Positions 11,058 through 54,783 of a DNA stretch of 64,000 nt are shown here, one piece after another. Made by a program: the position numbers and the translations under genes. Positions within the stretch are counted from its first letter, which is position 1, and each line of letters starts with the position of its first letter. The notes under the pieces were generated by a model that worked only from the letters and a program-made list of their open reading frames with translations, had not been told where the DNA came from and made no database searches. This DNA comes from Rhodocaloribacter litoris (GTDB taxonomy: Bacteria; Bacteroidota; Rhodothermia; Rhodothermales; ISCAR-4553), in NCBI RefSeq assembly GCF_011682235.2, contig NZ_CP076718.1, positions 1,890,058-1,954,057 of the forward strand, read 5' to 3'.

Positions 11058-12348
11058 CCACCTGCGCCGCTTCGAGGGCTGCCTCCAGGTCGCGCACCAG
11101 GTCGTCGACGGCTTCGAGGCCCACCGACAGGCGGATGCCGCTCGGGCGAATGCCCATGGCGATCTGCTCCTCGAGCGGGATCGGCGCGTGCGTCATGCTG
11201 GAGGGATGTTCGACGAGCGTCCGCACGTTGCCCAGGCTGACGGCCAGCGTGACGGTGTAGGCATGGCGCGCCAGGTGGTTGATGAACCGGATGCCGGCCT
11301 CCTGCTGCCGCTCCGGCGTGGCGCCCCTGAGTTCGAAGAACACCATACTGCCCGGCGCAAAGTTGCCCTCGTAGTCGATCATCTGACGACGGGCCACCGC
11401 ATACCCCGCGAACGACGGCAGCCCCGGATAGCTCACCGACGCCACGGCCGGGTGGTTGGCCAGGAAACGGACGAGCTCGCGGGCCGTGGCCTGCTGCTGC
11501 CGCATCCGCACGGCCAGGCTGGGCAGGCCGTAGACCAGGATGCTCCATGCGGCCCGGGGCGAGAGCACCCCGCCGAAGTCCTTCCGGTAGAGCAGGAGGC
11601 GATCACGGAAGGTGCGCGGGCCGATGACCACGCCCCCCATGTCCGTGCCGTAGCCGCTGATGCCCTTCGTCAGGCTGTGCACCACGAAGTCGGCCCCGTG
11701 CTCGAGCGGGCGCTGGCAGAACGGCGTGGCGAAGGTGTTGTCCACCACCACATAGACCCGTTCCTCCGGGGCACGGGCCGCATTGGCCGCCGCCACTTCG
11801 GCCACCACCGCCGCGATGTCCACGATCTCCAGCGTCGGATTGGCCGGCGTCTCCAGGTAGACCACCCGTGTGGCGGGGCGCAGGTGCTCGCGAAGCGCTT
11901 CCGGTGTCGTCAAATCAACCGGTGTGTGGGTGATCCCGAAGCGCGGCAGCCAGTTGTTCAGCAGCGAATGGGTACATCCATAGAGCGTGTGATGCGCCAC
12001 CAGATGCTCACCGGCCCGGAGCAGCACCCCCAGCACGGCCGAGATGGCCCCCATGCCCGAGGCAAACGTGACGGCCATTTCACCGCCCTCGGCCATGGCC
12101 AGGTTTTCCTCGAGCAGGTCCTTGTTCGGCTCGCGGAGGCGGTCATAGATGTAGATCGGCTGCCCGCTTTCCTCCTCGTGCCCGTAGGTGCGAAAGCCCT
12201 GTGCCCCCCGCACCTGCGAGTCCAGGCGGAATGTCGTCGAGGTGGAGATGGGCGGCACGACGTGGTGGCTGTACTCCCAGGCCGCCGAATGCATCCGCCC
12301 GTGAATCAGGCGGGTGGTGGGTTGATAGTCGTCGCCTTGCCGGGTCAT
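11038..12348 (-). CDS. Cys/Met-metabolism PLP enzyme (trans-sulfuration family)
   Basis: This 436-residue PLP enzyme belongs to the cystathionine gamma-synthase / methionine gamma-lyase / O-acetylhomoserine sulfhydrylase superfamily. YIYDRLREPN near residue 65, FASGMGAIS, and the Schiff-base lysine in VVHSLTKGISGYGTDMGG are the family marks, with VVDNTFATP carrying the PLP-contacting Asp. The C-terminal RPSGIRLSVGLE is also typical. The reaction (gamma-elimination or gamma-replacement) cannot be fixed by eye. It is ~30 residues longer than most members, with an insertion HEEESGQ near residue 58. An Lrp-type gene lies immediately upstream on the same strand and probably controls it. Confidence 0.85.
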   Translation of the reverse strand: MTRQGDDYQPTTRLIHGRMHSAAWEYSHHVVPPISTSTTFRLDSQVRGAQGFRTYGHEEESGQPIYIYDRLREPNKDLLEENLAMAEGGEMAVTFASGMGAISAVLGVLLRAGEHLVAHHTLYGCTHSLLNNWLPRFGITHTPVDLTTPEALREHLRPATRVVYLETPANPTLEIVDIAAVVAEVAAANAARAPEERVYVVVDNTFATPFCQRPLEHGADFVVHSLTKGISGYGTDMGGVVIGPRTFRDRLLLYRKDFGGVLSPRAAWSILVYGLPSLAVRMRQQQATARELVRFLANHPAVASVSYPGLPSFAGYAVARRQMIDYEGNFAPGSMVFFELRGATPERQQEAGIRFINHLARHAYTVTLAVSLGNVRTLVEHPSSMTHAPIPLEEQIAMGIRPSGIRLSVGLEAVDDLVRDLEAALEAAQVATGAAS

Positions 12349-33532: not shown

Positions 33533-34768
33533 TCAAAGGGTGGCCATGAAGCGCAGGCCGAGGACGAGGGCGTTCCCCCGGGCCGGGTTCGTGTCCGGGT
33601 TGACGACGTACTGGAGGTCGGCCTGGAGAGCCAGGCGGGCCGAGAAGAGGGCCAGGTAGGTCAGTTCGAACGTCGTCTCGGCCCGTTCGACGGGTTGCCC
33701 GGCCTGCCGCTGGGCCCGGCGGTAGGGGGTGCCGTTGTACGCCGAGGCCAGGGCCAGCCCCAGGCGGTCGTCGTCGCGTCCCCGGAAGGGACCGGTGTAG
33801 ACGATCCCGGCTCCCAGATAGGCTCCGAAGCGGTTGACCCGGGCATGGGCCGCGCCCAGCCGCACGAAGACGGCGAGCCCGCCCGTGCCGCCGGGTTCGC
33901 GATACGGCTGCCATTCGCCCAGCAGGTAGGCGCCCCGGCTCCGCGCCTGCTCCCCGGGCCGGCCCAGCACGTCGAACGCGGCCGTGTACATCCAGGCCCC
34001 GAGGCCCAGCCGGGCCCGGTACACCGGCTCGCCGAGCCGCGAGACCCGCCGTCGCGGAACGGGCGCCGTGCCTTCCCTCATCCCATCGAAGAACAGGCCT
34101 GTTTCGGCCGCCAGCAGAAGCCCGTCCTCCCGGCCGAAACGGATCCGGGTGCCGTGCGGCCGGGCCGGATCCCCGGGCACGCCGTCCAGCGCGACGGCCT
34201 GCACGTACAGGGCATCGACCGGCAACCACTTGACCCGTGCCCCCACCGACGTGTGCGGAAAGATGGAAGGCCCGTTCTTCCCGCTCTGCGAAAAGTCGGG
34301 CCCGATGCCGTGCGAGCTGTTGATGAACAGCGCGGCGGTGCGGATGAGGTCGAACTCCGTGTTCAGGTCGTAGAGCCCGAGCAGCACCGAGAGGCGACCG
34401 TCGTCGCGCAAGTGCTGAAGCCAGGCTTCGTAGAGCTGCCAGGCGGTCGGCGCCTCGATGTTGTTGACGCCCTGGGCGTCGCCGGCCAGCCGCGAAGGAT
34501 GCCCTCCCTGGTTGCCCAGACCGTAGAGAAACAGGTGCGTCCGCGACCAGCCCAGCAGATGCTCCAGATCGAGGGCAAGGGTCACGTCGAAGTTGTCCAG
34601 GTATACCACGTCCCGGCGCAGCCCACCGGCCAGGTTACCGAAGACATCGCCCGTGTAGCTTGCCTCGACGTGAAAGGCCGGCGCGGGCTGGGCCGGGGCC
34701 GGATCGGCAAGGAGCAAAAGACAGGAAAACCCCAGGAATACCCTGTGCTTCATGGCTTCGGTTTTCAT
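33533..34768 (-). CDS. OprB-family carbohydrate porin
   Basis: The 411-residue outer-membrane protein has a signal peptide ending PAPAQ. The OprB landmarks follow: LYGLGNQGGHPSRLAGDAQGV, NIEAPTAWQLYEAWLQH, LLGLYDLNTEFD and SSHGIGPDFSQSG, and then repeated amphipathic strands up to the terminal LGLRFMATL. It should let sugars or other small solutes diffuse. The frame extends to 34846; ATG 34768 (or 34753) gives the signal peptide. It is divergent from the first Asp23 operon, and the shared intergenic region holds phased TTTAA boxes for both. Confidence 0.82.
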   Translation of the reverse strand: MKTEAMKHRVFLGFSCLLLLADPAPAQPAPAFHVEASYTGDVFGNLAGGLRRDVVYLDNFDVTLALDLEHLLGWSRTHLFLYGLGNQGGHPSRLAGDAQGVNNIEAPTAWQLYEAWLQHLRDDGRLSVLLGLYDLNTEFDLIRTAALFINSSHGIGPDFSQSGKNGPSIFPHTSVGARVKWLPVDALYVQAVALDGVPGDPARPHGTRIRFGREDGLLLAAETGLFFDGMREGTAPVPRRRVSRLGEPVYRARLGLGAWMYTAAFDVLGRPGEQARSRGAYLLGEWQPYREPGGTGGLAVFVRLGAAHARVNRFGAYLGAGIVYTGPFRGRDDDRLGLALASAYNGTPYRRAQRQAGQPVERAETTFELTYLALFSARLALQADLQYVVNPDTNPARGNALVLGLRFMATL

Positions 34769-34837: not shown

Positions 34838-34854
34838 TTTAAACACGCATTAAA
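34838..34854 (-). promoter_or_regulatory. 11-bp phased TTTAA boxes, porin side (site A)
   Basis: On the minus strand TTTAAT (34854-34849) and TTTAAA (34843-34838) begin 11 bases apart, about 70 bases before the porin start. Direct repeats with an 11-bp period are the target form of PhoB/OmpR-type winged-helix regulators. Confidence 0.5.
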
Positions 34855-34909
34855 ATAACGCCTTGAACGGACCGGCGACAGCCCACCCGGAGGCGACAAA
34901 CAATCGTGT

Positions 34910-34926
34910 TTTAATCCCGCTTTAAT
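34910..34926 (+). promoter_or_regulatory. 11-bp phased TTTAA boxes, first Asp23 operon (site B)
   Basis: TTTAAT (34910-34915) and TTTAAT (34921-34926) are identical and exactly 11 bases apart, 71 bases before the first Asp23-like gene. The 19-base block TTTTAATCCCGCTTTAATG is nearly repeated at site C (36752-36770). Confidence 0.55.
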
Positions 34927-34997
34927 GCTTTCCGCACCCTTTTGCCCGATGTTGGGTCGTCGAAAGAGACCCGTAGCTGAAGAGCCGGTGACAACGT

Positions 34998-35456
34998 ATG
35001 ACGTTGACGACCCGCCTGCCCGAGGGGCGCTTGCGCATATCGGAGGCCGTGCTGGACAAGATGGTGATCGCCGAGGCGCAGCAGGTGCCGGGCGTGGTGG
35101 ACGTGCACGGCTGGCTCCTGGGCGCCGCGCTGGGCAGCGTGGCAGGCAGTGTGGTGGGGTTCGTCGAAGGAGGACCGATCGGGGCCGTCGTCGGCGGCAC
35201 GATGGGATCCGCCCTCGGCGCCACGGCCGGTCATCTGATCGAACAGCACCGGGACCAGCGTCGCCTCTTCGAGGTGGGGAAAGCCCGGCCGAGCATCCGG
35301 CTGCGCCTGACCGGCGCCTACGGGGCCGACCTGCGTGCCGTGGCCGCCTCGGTGCGCCAACGGGTACGCGAGACGGTGACCACCCTCACCGGGCTGGACG
35401 TGGCCCGGGTGGATGTGGAGTTCGTGGAGATCGCCCCGCCGGCCCGCTCCCTATGA
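34998..35456 (+). CDS. Asp23-like protein split by a glycine-zipper membrane insert
   Basis: In this 152-residue protein the Asp23 fold is recognisable in two halves: GRLRISEAVLDKMVIAEAQQ (residues 10-29) and, after an insert, SIRLRLTGAYGADLRAVAAS with a TGLDVARVDVEFVEI end (~98-147). Between them lie ~45 residues rich in G-x3-G (LLGAALGSVAGSVV, GGPIGAVVGGTMGSALG), a glycine zipper like those that pack in membranes. Asp23 proteins normally are soluble and tethered by AmaP, so this one may anchor itself. The next gene overlaps the stop by four bases, and boxes B precede the operon. Confidence 0.68.
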   Translation: MTLTTRLPEGRLRISEAVLDKMVIAEAQQVPGVVDVHGWLLGAALGSVAGSVVGFVEGGPIGAVVGGTMGSALGATAGHLIEQHRDQRRLFEVGKARPSIRLRLTGAYGADLRAVAASVRQRVRETVTTLTGLDVARVDVEFVEIAPPARSL

Positions 35457-35815
35457 CGAGATCCGTGAAACCCGATCCCTGGCTGGCGGCCGCCCGGCAC
35501 CTGGCCGAGGTGGCCCGGTCCCATCCCGGGGTGGCCGGCCTGGCCGAAAGCGGCCCGGTCGAGACGCGGGGACGCGGCGCCCCGGTGCGGGGCATAGCCC
35601 TGCGGGCCGGGGAAGAACGAGCCGTTGCCACCGTGGCCGTGACGCTCCACACCGGCGCCGTGACCGAAGCCGGAGGCCTCACCCCACTCGTGCGCTCCCT
35701 GCGGCACGCCCTCCTGGACGGCTGGCGCCGGCTCGACACCGGCCTGCCCCTGGACCTGCACGTGCAGGTACTCGACCTCGTTCCTCCCGGACCCGCCCCC
35801 GCTTCCTCATCATGA
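35453..35815 (+). CDS. divergent Asp23-like protein
   Basis: The 120-residue protein contains HLAEVARSHPGVAGLAESGP, then RGIALRAGEERAVATVAVTL and a C-terminal DLHVQVLDLVPP. This strand order and the invariant PGVA-L near the start resemble the short second Asp23 paralogue found in actinobacterial Asp23 operons. There are no membrane segments. It overlaps both neighbours by ATGA, so the three products are probably made in fixed ratio and form one complex (inference). Confidence 0.55.
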   Translation: MTRSVKPDPWLAAARHLAEVARSHPGVAGLAESGPVETRGRGAPVRGIALRAGEERAVATVAVTLHTGAVTEAGGLTPLVRSLRHALLDGWRRLDTGLPLDLHVQVLDLVPPGPAPASSS

Positions 35816-36414
35816 ACCACGAAAACGCCCTCGAACTGCTCCGACGCCTGCTCGTGGCGCTGCTGGGCGGGCTGTGGCTCGCTGCCGGTGTGCTGGTGTT
35901 CCTCCATGCCATGGAGATGACCGGGCCGGTCGTATGGGTCCGGGGCGGCTTCACCCTCGTGCTGAACCTGGCCGAACAGCCTTTCGGGACGGTGCTCACG
36001 TGGGCAGCACTCGCCGTCTGGGCCATCCTCGCCGGCCTGCTGCTCCTGGCCCTGGCCCTGATGCGCGTCGCGGACGAAGGGCGCCGCATCGTGTTGCGCG
36101 GCACAGCGCCCAACGGCTTCTATGGCGGCGGCCAGCTCACCGTGGCCCAGCGAAGCCTCGAAGCCCTGGCCGCCTACACGGCCGAACGCGTCGACGGTGT
36201 GCGCGAGGCCCGCCCGCGGCTGCGCCTCCGTCGCAAGGGGTGGCACATCGCGTGCCGCGTCACGCTGGCCCCGGACGCCGCCCTGCCCGACGTGTCAACC
36301 CGGCTGAAGACGGCCCTGCACGACGCCATCGAGCACCACACCGGCCTGCCCGTCGCACGCGTCGACATCGATGCCCAGCTGCACGCCATCGACGCCCACC
36401 GGCGCGTGCGATGA
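35812..36414 (+). CDS. amaP: AmaP-like membrane anchor
   Basis: The 200-residue protein has two transmembrane helices (about residues 12-33 and 62-87) joined by a short loop, then a soluble domain with GGQLTVAQRSLEALAAYTAE, REARPRLRLRRKGWHIACRV and HHTGLPVARVDIDAQLH. This is the layout of AmaP, which tethers Asp23 to the cytoplasmic membrane in Gram-positives; its C-terminal half is itself Asp23-like. It overlaps the upstream gene by four bases. A DUF2273-like gene follows 46 bases later. Confidence 0.66.
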   Translation: MNHENALELLRRLLVALLGGLWLAAGVLVFLHAMEMTGPVVWVRGGFTLVLNLAEQPFGTVLTWAALAVWAILAGLLLLALALMRVADEGRRIVLRGTAPNGFYGGGQLTVAQRSLEALAAYTAERVDGVREARPRLRLRRKGWHIACRVTLAPDAALPDVSTRLKTALHDAIEHHTGLPVARVDIDAQLHAIDAHRRVR

Positions 36415-36460
36415 GCCTGCCCGCCCGCATCCCTCCACCCCGTTCAACCCTCACGTGATT

Positions 36461-36739
36461 ATGGGACCTGGCGATCCCTTTACCGCAACCCGGCCCGATC
36501 TCGATGCAGACGAACGCCCGGTGCCGGAAGCCAGCCGGGGACTCCCCCGCTTGCACCTGTTGATCGGCCTGGTGACGGGGCTGGTCTTCGGCGTGCTGGT
36601 GCTGCTCGGCCTCCTCCTCGAAGGGCTCTTCGTGCTCCTGTGCGGCCTCCTGGGTGCCGGCATCGCGTGGGTGCTGCACGGTACCCTCACCGGCCGGCTG
36701 GACTTCGGAGCCGCCTGGCGGGCCCTCCGCCGGCAATGA
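36461..36739 (+). CDS. small membrane protein, DUF2273-like
   Basis: The 92-residue protein has a polar, acidic N terminus and a hydrophobic hairpin of about 45 residues (LLIGLVTGLVFGVLVLLGLL then LFVLLCGLLGAGIAWVLHG), ending in a short basic tail (RALRRQ). Position and topology match the DUF2273 small membrane protein that accompanies asp23 and amaP elsewhere, but sequence similarity is too weak by eye for a firm call. ATG 36461 was chosen as the first start before the hydrophobic part. Confidence 0.55.
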   Translation: MGPGDPFTATRPDLDADERPVPEASRGLPRLHLLIGLVTGLVFGVLVLLGLLLEGLFVLLCGLLGAGIAWVLHGTLTGRLDFGAAWRALRRQ

Positions 36740-36741
36740 CC

Positions 36742-36769
36742 TTTAAGCGGCTTTTAATCCCGCTTTTAT
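36742..36769 (+). promoter_or_regulatory. three phased TTTAA-like boxes before the canonical Asp23 gene (site C)
   Basis: TTTAAG (36742), TTTAAT (36753) and TTTTAT (36764) start every 11 bases, about 100 bases before the Asp23 gene. The centre nearly duplicates site B, which implies that this gene has its own regulated promoter despite lying behind the first operon. Confidence 0.55.
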
Positions 36770-36868
36770 GTTCGACCGACCCGAACCGCACGATTTTTCT
36801 TTCCCCGGGCCCCGGAAATGCTCCGGGGACCCCACACCCGACATCAGCAGCAACCCGGAGGACGATCC

Positions 36869-37351
36869 ATGGCAACGGCAACGAAAAACAAGGAAACCGA
36901 CGTGGCCCCGGCGAAAAAAACGTCCGTAAACGCCATCGAAGGGGCCTCCGTCACGCAGGACGAGTCCGGTCAGACGATCATCCGCAACCAGGTGGTCGCC
37001 AAGATCGCGAGCCTGGCCGTGCGCGAGATCGAAGGCGTCCACAGGCTCGTACCCTTCGGTGCCACGCAGTCCGTCGTCTCGCTGGCCAAGACGGTCACGG
37101 GGGGGACGATGCGGGACCTGGGCGTGCAGGTGGAAGTCGGCACGCGCGAGGCGGCCATCGACGTGCGCATCGTCGTCGACTACGGCGTCAGCATTCCGGC
37201 CATTGCCGAGGCCATCCGCCGCAACGTGGCCGAACGCGTCGAGGAAATGACGGGGCTGAAGGTGGTGGAGATCAACATCGACGTGGTGGACCTGTATTTC
37301 GGCGAGGAAGAAGAAGAGGTGGAAGAAGCCGCCGAGCCCCGCGTGCACTGA
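36869..37351 (+). CDS. Asp23/Gls24 family envelope stress protein
   Basis: This 160-residue protein is the canonical member. After a lysine-rich disordered N terminus come TIIRNQVVAKIASLAVREIEG, LGVQVEVGTREAAIDVRIVV and VVDYGVSIPAIAEAIRRNVA, then VEEMTGLKVVEINIDVVDLYF, and an acidic tail (GEEEEEVEEAAEP). In Gram-positives Asp23 is an abundant protein under the membrane whose loss induces cell-wall stress genes. The ATG has a GGAGG site six bases upstream. It has its own phased boxes (site C) and is followed by two strong hairpins. Confidence 0.85.
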   Translation: MATATKNKETDVAPAKKTSVNAIEGASVTQDESGQTIIRNQVVAKIASLAVREIEGVHRLVPFGATQSVVSLAKTVTGGTMRDLGVQVEVGTREAAIDVRIVVDYGVSIPAIAEAIRRNVAERVEEMTGLKVVEINIDVVDLYFGEEEEEVEEAAEPRVH

Positions 37352-37370
37352 AGCCGTTTCGGGCGGGCAT

Positions 37371-37435
37371 GGGGTGCCGTCGGCGGAACCCGGCACCCCG
37401 GTGTGGCGCCGTACCCGGCTCGTTCGGGTACGGCG
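37371..37435. terminator. two tandem hairpins between convergent genes
   Basis: GGGGTGCCG/CGGCACCCC (37371-37379, 37391-37399) and CGCCGTACCCG/CGGGTACGGCG (37407-37417, 37425-37435) are perfect stems in the gap between the Asp23 gene and the convergent regulator. T-runs are poor, so termination by stem strength or Rho is likely. Confidence 0.5.
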
Positions 37436-37436
37436 T

Positions 37437-38405
37437 TCACGTCGCGTGCCGGCTCACCTGGAGCCGGTAGCCCCGGCCCCGCACCGTCTGGATGACGCCT
37501 TTGAGCCCCTGCTCGGCCAGCTTGCGCCGCACGAAGTGCATGTAGACGTCGACCATGTTCGTGCCGGTGTCGAAGTTGAGCCCCCAGACCGCATCCAGGA
37601 TCTGATCGCGCGAGCAGACCTCCCCGGGATGCTGCATCAGATAGTGCAGCAGGTCGAACTCCTTGGGCGTCAGTTCCACCTCGCGCTCGTGGATGAAGAA
37701 ACGGAAGCCGTCCACGTCGAGGCGCAGGGGACCGCACACGAGCACCGACGGGTTACCGGATTCGGGCGGCACCGGCGCCAGCGCGTCCTCGATCTCACGC
37801 GCCACGGCCCCGACGATCTCGCGGGCGTGCTCCGGCGGAGGCGGTTCGGGGGGTGAGGCGGGCTTCCGGTCGGGGGGAGAAGACGGCCTGCCGCCCGTGC
37901 GTCCGGACGCAGGCAGCAGCGTCTCCGGGGCGGTCGCGGCCTGCTCCTCGAGCCGCTGGAGCCGTTTTCTGATCCGCCGTGCCGTGGCCCGGCGCACGGA
38001 CCGGATGAGCCGCCGGTAGGCCGCGGCACGGGCCTGGAGCAACGGCAGGTAGAGCGGAAAGGAGGCCACATCGTCGACGCCCGAGGCCAGCGCGGCGATC
38101 ATCTCGTCCTGCCCGCCCCCGGCGCACAGGGCCAGCAACGGCACCGGCGCCGCCCGGCGGATGTGATGGCAGAGGGCCTGGAGCCGCGCCGCGCGCATCG
38201 CCTCCCAGTGTACCAGCACCACATCCACCTTGCGAAGCCCCGCCACCAGCTCGCGCCCGCGCTCCGAGAGCTGCTGCCGCTCGTCCAGCAAGGCGTCCGG
38301 CGCAAACACCCGCACCTCGTGCGGCGGCGGGCAGGCCAGGCGCACCGCCTGCTCCACCTGCGCCTCCTCCGTGACGAGACAGACCAGAAGGGGATGATCA
38401 TACAT
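37437..38405 (-). CDS. OmpR/PhoB-type regulator with a pseudo-receiver domain
   Basis: The 322-residue protein has a C-terminal winged helix (~221-318; VELTPKEFDLLHYLMQHPGE, RGRGYRL) typical of OmpR/PhoB DNA binding. The N-terminal ~130 residues fit the receiver fold, but key residues are replaced. The phospho-acceptor position in DVVLVHWEAM is His66, the Thr/Ser position is Cys94 (LLALCA), and the invariant Lys is missing in DDVASFPLY. A long basic then Pro-rich linker (~132-195) joins the domains. It should bind DNA without aspartyl phosphorylation. No histidine kinase is adjacent. The phased TTTAA boxes around it are candidate targets. Confidence 0.8.
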   Translation of the reverse strand: MYDHPLLVCLVTEEAQVEQAVRLACPPPHEVRVFAPDALLDERQQLSERGRELVAGLRKVDVVLVHWEAMRAARLQALCHHIRRAAPVPLLALCAGGGQDEMIAALASGVDDVASFPLYLPLLQARAAAYRRLIRSVRRATARRIRKRLQRLEEQAATAPETLLPASGRTGGRPSSPPDRKPASPPEPPPPEHAREIVGAVAREIEDALAPVPPESGNPSVLVCGPLRLDVDGFRFFIHEREVELTPKEFDLLHYLMQHPGEVCSRDQILDAVWGLNFDTGTNMVDVYMHFVRRKLAEQGLKGVIQTVRGRGYRLQVSRHAT

Positions 38406-38484
38406 GAAAGACTCGCTGGATCGCCGGGAATCCGGAAAGGGAAAGATTAAAGGAATCGATGCATTCCGACAAATCGCCCCGGAC

Positions 38485-38512
38485 TTTAACGACAGTTTAA
38501 TTTCCGTTTAAG
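38485..38512 (+). promoter_or_regulatory. three phased TTTAA boxes between regulator and barrel cluster (site D)
   Basis: TTTAAC (38485), TTTAAT (38496) and TTTAAG (38507) start exactly every 11 bases in the 192-base divergent gap. Their orientation points to the lipoprotein/barrel/OmpA cluster, and the site also lies about 80 bases before the regulator start, allowing autoregulation. Confidence 0.6.
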
Positions 38513-38597: not shown

Positions 38598-39122
38598 ATG
38601 ACACCGAAGATTATGAACGACCTACGTGCTCTCGGAAGCCGGTTGGCGCTTCCCGGCGTGTTGCTTTTGCTGTTGACCCTCTCGGCCTGCGACAGCAGCG
38701 ACACCGTGGATTTCGACGCCGTTGCGGGCGAGTACGTTTTTACACGCTTCGAGTTCAACCCGGCCTCCAGCCTGCTCCAGCCGCTCGACGTGCTCGACAC
38801 GCTGGTGACCTCCAACACACGGCTCCAGCTGTTCTCGAGCGGTCGTTTCACGCTCATGTACCAGTTCGTCGGCGGCCCGGCCGAGTTCATCGGCGGCGAC
38901 TACACGGCCACCAGCGCCCGCGTCCGCCTCAAAGGCAACGCCGACGAGAAACGGTTCTACGAGGCGCTGCTGCTCAGCAACGAGTTCACGCTGAACCGTG
39001 AAGGCGACAACGTGCTCACGGCCGACATCGAACGGGAGGTCAACCTGGAGCAGTTCTCCCGCCGCTACGAAGGCCTCACGGCCGTCAAAGGTACGCTCTC
39101 GCTGCGACTGCAGCGGCAGTAG
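38598..39122 (+). CDS. small lipoprotein of unknown function
   Basis: The 174-residue protein has a lipobox LTLSAC (Cys about residue 31). The mature part is a compact beta-rich domain (EYVFTRFEFNPASS, LQLFSSGRFTLMYQFVGG, EFTLNREGDNVLTADI) that recalls lipocalin-like folds, but I cannot assign a family. ATG 38598 or 38613 may be the start. It is the first gene behind boxes D and lies 35 bases before the barrel protein, so it is probably in the same operon. Confidence 0.6.
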   Translation: MTPKIMNDLRALGSRLALPGVLLLLLTLSACDSSDTVDFDAVAGEYVFTRFEFNPASSLLQPLDVLDTLVTSNTRLQLFSSGRFTLMYQFVGGPAEFIGGDYTATSARVRLKGNADEKRFYEALLLSNEFTLNREGDNVLTADIEREVNLEQFSRRYEGLTAVKGTLSLRLQRQ

Positions 39123-41578: not shown

Positions 41579-42481
41579 ATGAGACACCCGCTGCGCCTTT
41601 TCCTGCTGATAGGCCTGACGCTGACCGCCGCCGGGAGCGTACCGGCCCATGCCCGGATACAGGCGCAGGGCACCGACACCACGACGGCGGGCCTCCCGGC
41701 CACGGCACGACAACCGGTGCAGATCCGGATCGCGCCGGAGGGCGGGGTGCGGATCCGCTCCCGAAACATTTCGCGCCCGCGCCTCCTGCTCGTGCGCACG
41801 CCGCGGACCGCCCCGGTCCGGGTAATCACCGTCCCGGTTCCGGCGGGCGAAGCGGGGCTGACGGCCCGGGACCTGCAGCAGCTGGAGAACCGGCTGCTCC
41901 GGCACCTCGACGCACGCCTGGCCCAGTGGATGGCGCTGCAGAACCGGGAAACCGCCGGCGTCTCGCCGCCTCCGGCGGGTGAAGCACCGCCGGTCTCCGG
42001 GGAAACCCCGCCCGGGCCGCCGGCCGTGCCCCGGCCCCCGGTCAGCCCGCCCCCGAGGCCGGAGACCCCGATCGACCCGGCCGCCTTGCCGCGGGCGCAG
42101 GTCACCGTCGAGCAAATCAGCCGGGCCCTGCTGGACGAGGGCCTCTTCCGGGCCCTCTCGATCCACTTCGAAGTAAACCAGAGCACCCTGCTGCCCGCCT
42201 CGCACCAGACGCTCGACGCCCTGGGCACGGTGCTCACCCGCCACCCCGGGTTGCGCCTGGAGATTGCCGGGCATACCGACAGCACCGGCCCCGACGACTA
42301 CAACCTGCGCCTCTCACAGCAACGCGCCGAGGCCGTTCGAACCTACCTGATCGAACGCTTCGGTATCGCACCGGAACGCCTGCTCGCACGCGGCTACGGC
42401 GAAACCCGGCCGCTGGCCGACAACGACACCCCCACCGGCCGCACCCTCAACCGGCGGGTCGAATTCCGCGTCGTCGAATGA
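41579..42481 (+). CDS. OmpA-domain peptidoglycan-binding protein
   Basis: The 300-residue protein has a signal peptide (about residues 1-25), a beta-rich segment and short coiled region (LTARDLQQLENRLLRHLDAR). A Pro-rich linker (~128-165) follows, and then an OmpA C-terminal domain: SIHFEVNQSTLLPASHQTLD, IAGHTDSTGPDDYNLRLSQQ, RGYGETRPLADNDTPTGRTL and NRRVEF, with the Asp and Arg that bind diaminopimelate. There is no N-terminal barrel, so it is likely a periplasmic linker. It is 84 bases behind the multi-barrel gene and probably fastens that protein or the envelope to the cell wall. Confidence 0.84.
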   Translation: MRHPLRLFLLIGLTLTAAGSVPAHARIQAQGTDTTTAGLPATARQPVQIRIAPEGGVRIRSRNISRPRLLLVRTPRTAPVRVITVPVPAGEAGLTARDLQQLENRLLRHLDARLAQWMALQNRETAGVSPPPAGEAPPVSGETPPGPPAVPRPPVSPPPRPETPIDPAALPRAQVTVEQISRALLDEGLFRALSIHFEVNQSTLLPASHQTLDALGTVLTRHPGLRLEIAGHTDSTGPDDYNLRLSQQRAEAVRTYLIERFGIAPERLLARGYGETRPLADNDTPTGRTLNRRVEFRVVE

Positions 42482-53962: not shown

Positions 53963-53979
53963 TTTAATGATTTGTTAAA
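53963..53979 (+). promoter_or_regulatory. weaker phased TTTAA boxes before the CAP protein (site E)
   Basis: TTTAAT (53963) and GTTAAA (53974) start 11 bases apart, about 100 bases before the CAP-domain lipoprotein. A GATATC at 54005 could be the -10. It resembles sites A-D, but one box is off-consensus and an extra TTTAAC at 53936 is out of phase. Confidence 0.3.
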
Positions 53980-54072: not shown

Positions 54073-54783
54073 ATGCGTACACGTCAACTTTTCGGGGTTG
54101 TGCTGGCGATCCTGCTCGGTGGCTGTGCTACGTTGCAGGGGCCCCGGGTCATCCCCGCCGGTCACGAGACGGCGTCCTTCGCTCCGGAGGGGCCGGGCAT
54201 GCCCGCGGATCTCGTACCCGGCAACCCGCTCGCCCTGTTGCTGGCCCCGCCGGCCTGGCCGCCCGAAGCCGTCGCGACGGCCCCGCCCTTCGACGCGGCG
54301 GCGCTGGAGCGGCGCATCCACGAGCGGGTGAACGAAGTGCGCGCCCGGCACGGGCTGGCGCGGCTGGACTGGTCGGCGTCGCTGCTGCCGGTGGCGCGGG
54401 CACACAGCGAGGACATGGCCCGCCGCGGCTACTTTGCCCACGTGAACCCGGAGGGAGAAGACGCCGGGGACCGGGCCCGGCGCGCCGGGGTGTCGCTCGT
54501 CCACACCGCCGCCTCGTATGCCACCCTGGGCATCGGGGAAAACCTCAGCCTGATGCACCGCTACGCCGAATACCGCATCTACGACGAAGGGACCCGCCGG
54601 CGCTACGTGTTCTCCTGGCGCAGCCCCGACGAGATCGCCCGGCAGGTGGTGGCAAGCTGGCTCCAGAGCCCCGGCCACCGGGCCAACCTGCTCAGCCCCA
54701 TCTATGCCGCCGAGGCCATCGGCGTGTTCCGGGCCGAGAACGAAGCCCTCTTCATCACCCAGAACCTCCTCACGGCCCGCTAA
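54073..54783 (+). CDS. CAP/SCP-domain lipoprotein
   Basis: The 236-residue protein has a lipobox LLGGC (Cys about 18) and a CAP domain (~80-235): HERVNEVRARHGLARLDWSA, the conserved His in RRGYFAHVNPEGE, GENLSLMHR and SWLQSPGHRANLLSP. CAP proteins of bacteria are exported and mostly of unknown activity; some bind lipids or act near peptidoglycan. Possible phased boxes (site E) connect it to the envelope regulon (inference). Confidence 0.85.
   Translation: MRTRQLFGVVLAILLGGCATLQGPRVIPAGHETASFAPEGPGMPADLVPGNPLALLLAPPAWPPEAVATAPPFDAAALERRIHERVNEVRARHGLARLDWSASLLPVARAHSEDMARRGYFAHVNPEGEDAGDRARRAGVSLVHTAASYATLGIGENLSLMHRYAEYRIYDEGTRRRYVFSWRSPDEIARQVVASWLQSPGHRANLLSPIYAAEAIGVFRAENEALFITQNLLTAR

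Follow-up and report, generated by a model that had tools for sequence, protein, structure and literature searches.

Phased 11-bp TTTAA repeats as candidate operators of an orphan pseudo-receiver regulator at an Asp23-AmaP envelope locus of Rhodocaloribacter litoris

We analyzed a stretch of 64 000 nucleotides from the Rhodocaloribacter litoris genome (here called the window), in which TTTAA boxes phased at 11 bp precede envelope genes around a gene for an orphan pseudo-receiver regulator, and we consider it likely (probability about 0.8) that this protein, through binding to the direct repeats, governs a regulon of Asp23-AmaP envelope genes. That the adjacent winged-helix regulator would read the boxes and control the envelope genes is well supported by comparison, because three predictions of such a function, regarding co-occurrence, positional conservation and linkage of a paralogue, were borne out. 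Judging from sequence, we regard the conserved set of candidate operators as real and the envelope regulon as probable. The kind of regulation is already known, and the regulator clade and its predicted targets are new. The sites provide a testable candidate operator code for an uncharacterised clade of regulators, and they tie Asp23-AmaP, a system familiar from the stress biology of Gram-positive bacteria, to a porin/barrel/OmpA cluster in a Gram-negative-type bacterium.

The genes of the locus, as predicted using a gene caller trained on known genes, are listed in Table 1 together with the four sites. The locus encodes an Asp23-domain protein and, within the same cluster, an AmaP anchor that is borderline here, with the Roseithermus orthologue of the anchor reaching 59.2 bits and thereby exceeding the NF033218 cut-off. 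All four sites were found with 11-bp phasing at the places given in the initial annotation, with a correction of the strand for site A, which reads TTTAAACACGCATTAA with one mismatch on the plus strand and is perfect on the minus strand, i.e. the coding strand of the porin gene. The coding strand of the downstream gene reads TTTAA at all four sites. The distance to that gene is about 70 bp for site A (OprB-type porin), 73 bp for site B (glycine-zipper/Asp23 operon) and 100 bp for site C (canonical asp23), and site D lies in the intergenic region between the regulator and the lipoprotein/barrel genes, oriented away from the regulator. Sites B and C, which had been described as almost identical over 19 bases, share 18 of these 19 (TTTTAATCCCGCTTTAATG versus TTTTAATCCCGCTTTTATG). 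Site A was found in this genome only, and was assigned by motif and orientation. A weaker site, TTTAATGATTTGTTAA, is located at 53963-53979 of the window, about 120 bp upstream of a CAP-domain (SCP-like) gene (54100-54783), which is a possible further target.

Table 1. Genes and box sites of the Asp23-AmaP locus, with positions as counted in the window.
Feature	Position	Strand	Sequence, domains or family match	Remark
OprB-family porin	33533-34768	-	PF04966, E 2e-45	Predicted target of site A
Site A	34839-34854	-	TTTAATGCGTGTTTAA (34854-34839)	Two perfect boxes, 11 bp apart
Site B	34910-34925	+	TTTAATCCCGCTTTAA	Two boxes
Glycine-zipper protein, Asp23-type C-terminus	34998-35456	+	PF03780, PF13488	Predicted target of site B
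Small operon gene, 116 aa	35465-35815	+	No family match
AmaP-like membrane anchor of Asp23 system	35812-36414	+	NF033218, 54.8 bits (cut-off 55)	Borderline
Small membrane protein, 92 aa	36461-36739	+	No family match	Kept in locus
Site C	36742-36768	+	TTTAAGCGGCT/TTTAATCCCGC/TTTTA	Three boxes, one mismatch (third box TTTTA)
Canonical Asp23	36869-37351	+	PF03780, E 3e-25, 89 bits	Predicted target of site C
Regulator, 322 aa	37437-38405	-	Degenerate receiver, Pro-rich linker, OmpR/PhoB winged helix
Site D	38485-38511	+	TTTAACGACAG/TTTAATTTCCG/TTTAA	Three perfect boxes
Small lipoprotein-like secreted protein	38598-39122	+	No family match	Predicted target of site D
Outer-membrane beta-barrel protein, 778 aa	39158-41494	+	PF13505	3' of site D
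OmpA-family protein	41579-42481	+	PF00691	Closes conserved cluster

A pattern search for exact TTTAA-N6-TTTAA gave seven copies in the 4 502 320 bases of the genome, five of which lie inside 3.7 kb of the window (34839-38511; none expected), and the reversed control pattern gave no match genome-wide. Allowing for up to one mismatch, nine matches were observed in the window compared to 0.03 expected from window shuffles, and the five exact pairs compare with none in 300 first-order Markov windows. The motif is thus unlikely to have arisen by chance, in agreement with the initial annotation. In the genome scan with up to one mismatch suggested there, near-matches with one mismatch elsewhere were mostly isolated two-box sites, many of which have no correctly oriented gene nearby. 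The remaining two exact copies are found in a copper cluster (3085408; L050, see below) and at 1000458-1000473 of the genome (L049 9459-9474), the latter being an exact TTTAACCCATATTTAA in a gap having no gene in matching orientation.

Among the seven TTTAA pairs of the window separated by at most 45 nt, the spacing was 11 in five cases, 22 in one and 27 in one. The TTTAA runs might instead be AT-rich promoter elements, in the form of sigma-factor hexamers or UP-like tracts, which would agree with their positions upstream of genes and with AT-rich motifs being conspicuous in GC-rich DNA. However, a spacing of 11 (also 22 and 33) misfits the 17-20 or so that separates -35/-10 or -33/-7 elements, the number of boxes ranges from two to four, and the motif is almost missing upstream of other genes in these loci, making promoter elements a very improbable explanation. 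A search for a fixed promoter element 3' of the boxes gave none that was consistent.

Of the 114 genomes of the order, 16 have members of the regulator clade (E<=1e-45), and none were found (E<=1e-55) outside of the order when 394 genomes of the phylum were searched. Four of the 114 genomes carry Asp23 (G000, G008, which is Roseithermus sacchariphilus, G021 and G102), and in every one of these a regulator orthologue adjoins it. The gene set of the locus is kept in Roseithermus, with orthologues of the glycine-zipper/Asp23 protein found in Roseithermus, G021 and G102, of the lipoprotein-like protein in Roseithermus and G102, and of the 92-aa membrane protein in Roseithermus, the gene of which is matched by a co-positioned small gene in G102. 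Direct repeats of 11-bp period are conserved alongside the regulator. In Roseithermus, three-box sites before asp23 (L038 8815-8841) and in the gap between the regulator and the glycine-zipper operon (L038 10374-10400) are the counterparts of sites C and B, respectively. G102 has the counterpart of site D between its regulator and lipoprotein genes, with three boxes (ATTAATCCAGC/TTTAACCCCTC/GTTAAGG, L141), and that of site B upstream of its glycine-zipper gene (TTTAATGGCGC/GTTAATC, L142 2464-2479, one mismatch). The second asp23 gene of G021 is preceded by four TCTAA boxes, TCTAATGTAAT/TCTAATCCGGT/TCTAACACCGC/TCTAATATG (L047, approximately 11757-11796), as the counterpart of site C, and the regulator operon of that genome by a two-box site, TCTAATACGCC/TTTAATAC. 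Spacer bases vary between the genomes with boxes and phase being kept, which is the pattern expected of operators. The conservation of the boxes in related genomes, proposed at the outset as a check, was hence found at equivalent positions in Roseithermus, G102 and G021. A clustering by chance, as the post hoc selection of a short motif from a single window could have produced, is already refuted by this recurrence in other families of the order, with the concentration of exact genomic copies within the 3.7 kb also speaking against it, and we give it practically no weight.

For 173 upstream regions from 15 loci, we also determined the score of the best coding-strand box pair with 11-bp spacing. 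As the consensus was derived from the window, other genomes provide an independent test here, which the window's own sites do not. Sixteen of them scored at least 9/10, with 13 belonging to genes of Asp23 loci or DUF4398/LDT operons, and the other three to the Roseithermus regulator (shared intergenic region), a secreted-protein gene beside the G036 regulator, and the CAP-domain gene at 54100. One of the 16 high-scoring regions, that of the CAP-domain gene, belongs to an unrelated gene. Triple TYTAA boxes gave 14 matches across the order and nine with the reversed control pattern; since such triplets alone are no proof across the order, position and linkage carry the argument. The site in G036 (L046 9270-9285) is a perfect two-box site and the sole exact one in that genome, lying between a clade regulator and a gene whose secreted product carries a CHRD domain and a type IX sorting tail, perhaps a third kind of target. 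A literature search gave no relevant work addressing either Asp23 or regulator motifs among Rhodothermus-like bacteria.

Another member of the clade is encoded in the R. litoris genome at 4362076-4362831, close to an operon for a DUF4398-type lipoprotein, with a DUF4398 match under the curated cut-off, and two YkuD L,D-transpeptidases. This type of lipoprotein was found in 10 genomes of the order. A box pair (at least 9/10, upstream, coding strand) accompanies the operon in eight of the nine genomes having the paralogous regulator (G000, G003, G017, G044, G005, G019, G006 and G105), where the closely related G003 and G017 amount to nearly one count, and where the pair of G105 precedes a small gene that is the apparent leader of the DUF4398/LDT operon. 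No clear box was seen in G022, having regulator and LDT operon, or in G040, having the regulator, and the single genome with the operon and no clade member (G029) had no box upstream (0/1). It is conceivable, at somewhat less than even odds, that two paralogues of an orphan pseudo-receiver clade, so far seen in this order only, use a common 11-bp box code for two envelope programmes, one of Asp23-AmaP, porin and barrel and the other of lipoprotein and L,D-transpeptidase, in response to a non-phosphorylation signal.

The regulator of the window matches Trans_reg_C (PF00486, E 2e-27) alone in Pfam, with no match to a Pfam receiver. Its predicted structure nonetheless has a receiver-like N-terminal domain of alternating beta/alpha elements (pLDDT approximately 80-93), followed by a linker of low confidence and then the winged helix, and full-length Foldseek matches were obtained to KdpE, PrrA and MtrA (1e-11 to 1e-13), with the model also matching the PhoB-pho box complex. 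With a Trans_reg_C winged helix and a receiver fold, the protein belongs to the OmpR/PhoB family, but not to its canonical, phosphorylated members with Asp, Thr/Ser and Lys, at the positions of which it carries H66, C94 and F116. Of these, C94 and F116 were placed by the PrrA alignment and H66, which closes the third strand (residues 62-66), by the model and a family alignment. The Lys is missing in all 11 aligned family members and the Asp is retained in some paralogues. The recognition helix (FDTGTNMVDVYMxFLRRKL) is near-identical across orthologues and paralogues. Together, these make up a single clade with a support of 1.0 in a tree of winged helices, standing apart and with metal-type regulators as nearest neighbors. 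The genome has genes for ten Trans_reg_C proteins, and a contig search with the regulator alignment gave mostly unrelated OmpR-family proteins. A Pho box with a PhoB regulon was considered and rejected, with PhoB models staying far under their cut-off (104 of 296 bits) and the predicted targets being envelope genes, without phosphate genes.

Repeats of TYTAA at 11 bp serve several OmpR-type regulators in the order. A three-box TTTAAGG site (L050 9398-9424; 3085397-3085423 of the R. litoris genome) precedes a Usp/M50-peptidase/patatin/multicopper-oxidase/CopB cluster, about 10 kb from an OmpR-type regulator, and probably belongs to a copper regulon whose box is related. Metal-type clusters of G001 (L051 5636-9121 and L052 6754-13475) carry seven TTTAAGG-type arrays of two to five boxes, including five perfect consecutive ones at L051 9073-9121. 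In family f13, TCTAAT box runs lie between a kinase-paired canonical regulator and an RND efflux operon. Runs of TCTAA with 11-bp spacing at L147 1565, L148 7573 and L149 7020 (four boxes each) and L150 853 (at least three) sit between a canonical regulator and a divergent outer-membrane-factor/RND efflux operon, with a kinase adjoining in L147-L149. Because related boxes in the order serve metal regulators, the box alone does not name the protein that binds it. The metal-type regulator at 633355-633639, the closest of its type in the R. litoris genome, was rejected as binder, having repeats of ATGAGA instead of TTTAA at 11 bp upstream of its own gene; four such repeats lie about 100-150 bp 5' of the regulator at 1057 of L178 (near 633000 of the genome) and are apparently its own type of box.

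The boxes of the window could accordingly belong to another of the genome's own OmpR-family regulators, either the paralogue or that of the copper cluster (approximately 3095534), in which case the closeness of the local regulator to them would be incidental. The winged helix of the paralogue is about 59% identical to that of the local regulator and similar boxes accompany it, and the copper cluster carries TTTAAGGGGGCTTTAAGGG boxes. Yet Roseithermus, G021 and G102 have one clade member each genome-wide (E<=1e-45), found beside Asp23 and with boxes, the copper boxes read TTTAAGG whereas the envelope boxes are mainly TTTAAT(C/G), and the recognition helix of the copper regulator, YVTDNVIDVTISGLRQKL, is very different. 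Binding by another regulator is in our view unlikely, with the local regulator being the best candidate for the binder and the paralogue a serious alternative.

If the local regulator is indeed the binder, the boxes would make up operators in which two to four half-sites of TTTAA follow one another at intervals of one helical turn (11 bp) along the coding strand, some 70-130 bp 5' of envelope genes. The regulator would most likely bind them head to tail with one winged helix per box, as expected from the structures of PhoB and PhoP. The distance of about 70-130 bp to the start codons and the orientation of the sites towards the genes suggest activation, most likely of an envelope-maintenance regulon comprising the OprB porin, the glycine-zipper Asp23/AmaP operon, asp23 and the lipoprotein/barrel/OmpA genes. 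The degenerate receiver suggests phosphorylation-free control, as in ChxR and HP1043, and the pseudo-receiver may be controlled by abundance, a ligand or a partner, with envelope stress as the presumed signal.

PhoB/OmpR-family winged helices bind direct repeats with an 11-bp period. For Mycobacterium tuberculosis PhoP, these are 7-bp repeats with a 4-bp spacer (PMC4832192). The regulator studied here resembles PhoB, with its pho box, and PhoP in the PF00486 winged helix, the receiver-like fold, the 11-bp period of the repeats and their orientation towards the target gene, and differs by lacking the Asp, Thr/Ser and Lys of the phospho-switch, by a long Pro-rich linker and by boxes that read TTTAA(T). 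A degenerate receiver combined with an OmpR winged helix is shared with the phosphorylation-independent regulators ChxR (PMC3960148) and Helicobacter pylori HP1043 (PMC5253667, PMC8345958), from which the present proteins differ in being a separate clade, order-restricted so far and associated with operons of Asp23/AmaP and of L,D-transpeptidases, and in a phosphorylation independence that is here predicted from residues. How pseudo-receivers in general switch (PMC12632262) becomes directly testable in a clade with a defined candidate operator and clear targets. The metal-responsive OmpR-type systems of the order, i.e. the R. litoris copper cluster and the RND systems of f13, likewise have TTTAA or TCTAA boxes every 11 bp, located between regulator and target or inside the cluster, but these involve canonical receivers encoded next to histidine kinases, boxes that read TTTAAGG or TCTAAT, and metal genes. 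Asp23/AmaP of Staphylococcus aureus is under SigB control. In common with that alkaline-shock system (PMC11350273), the locus described here clusters an Asp23 protein with an AmaP-like membrane anchor, but within a Gram-negative-type envelope, coupled to porin, barrel and OmpA genes, and with a predicted OmpR-type reader apparently replacing SigB.
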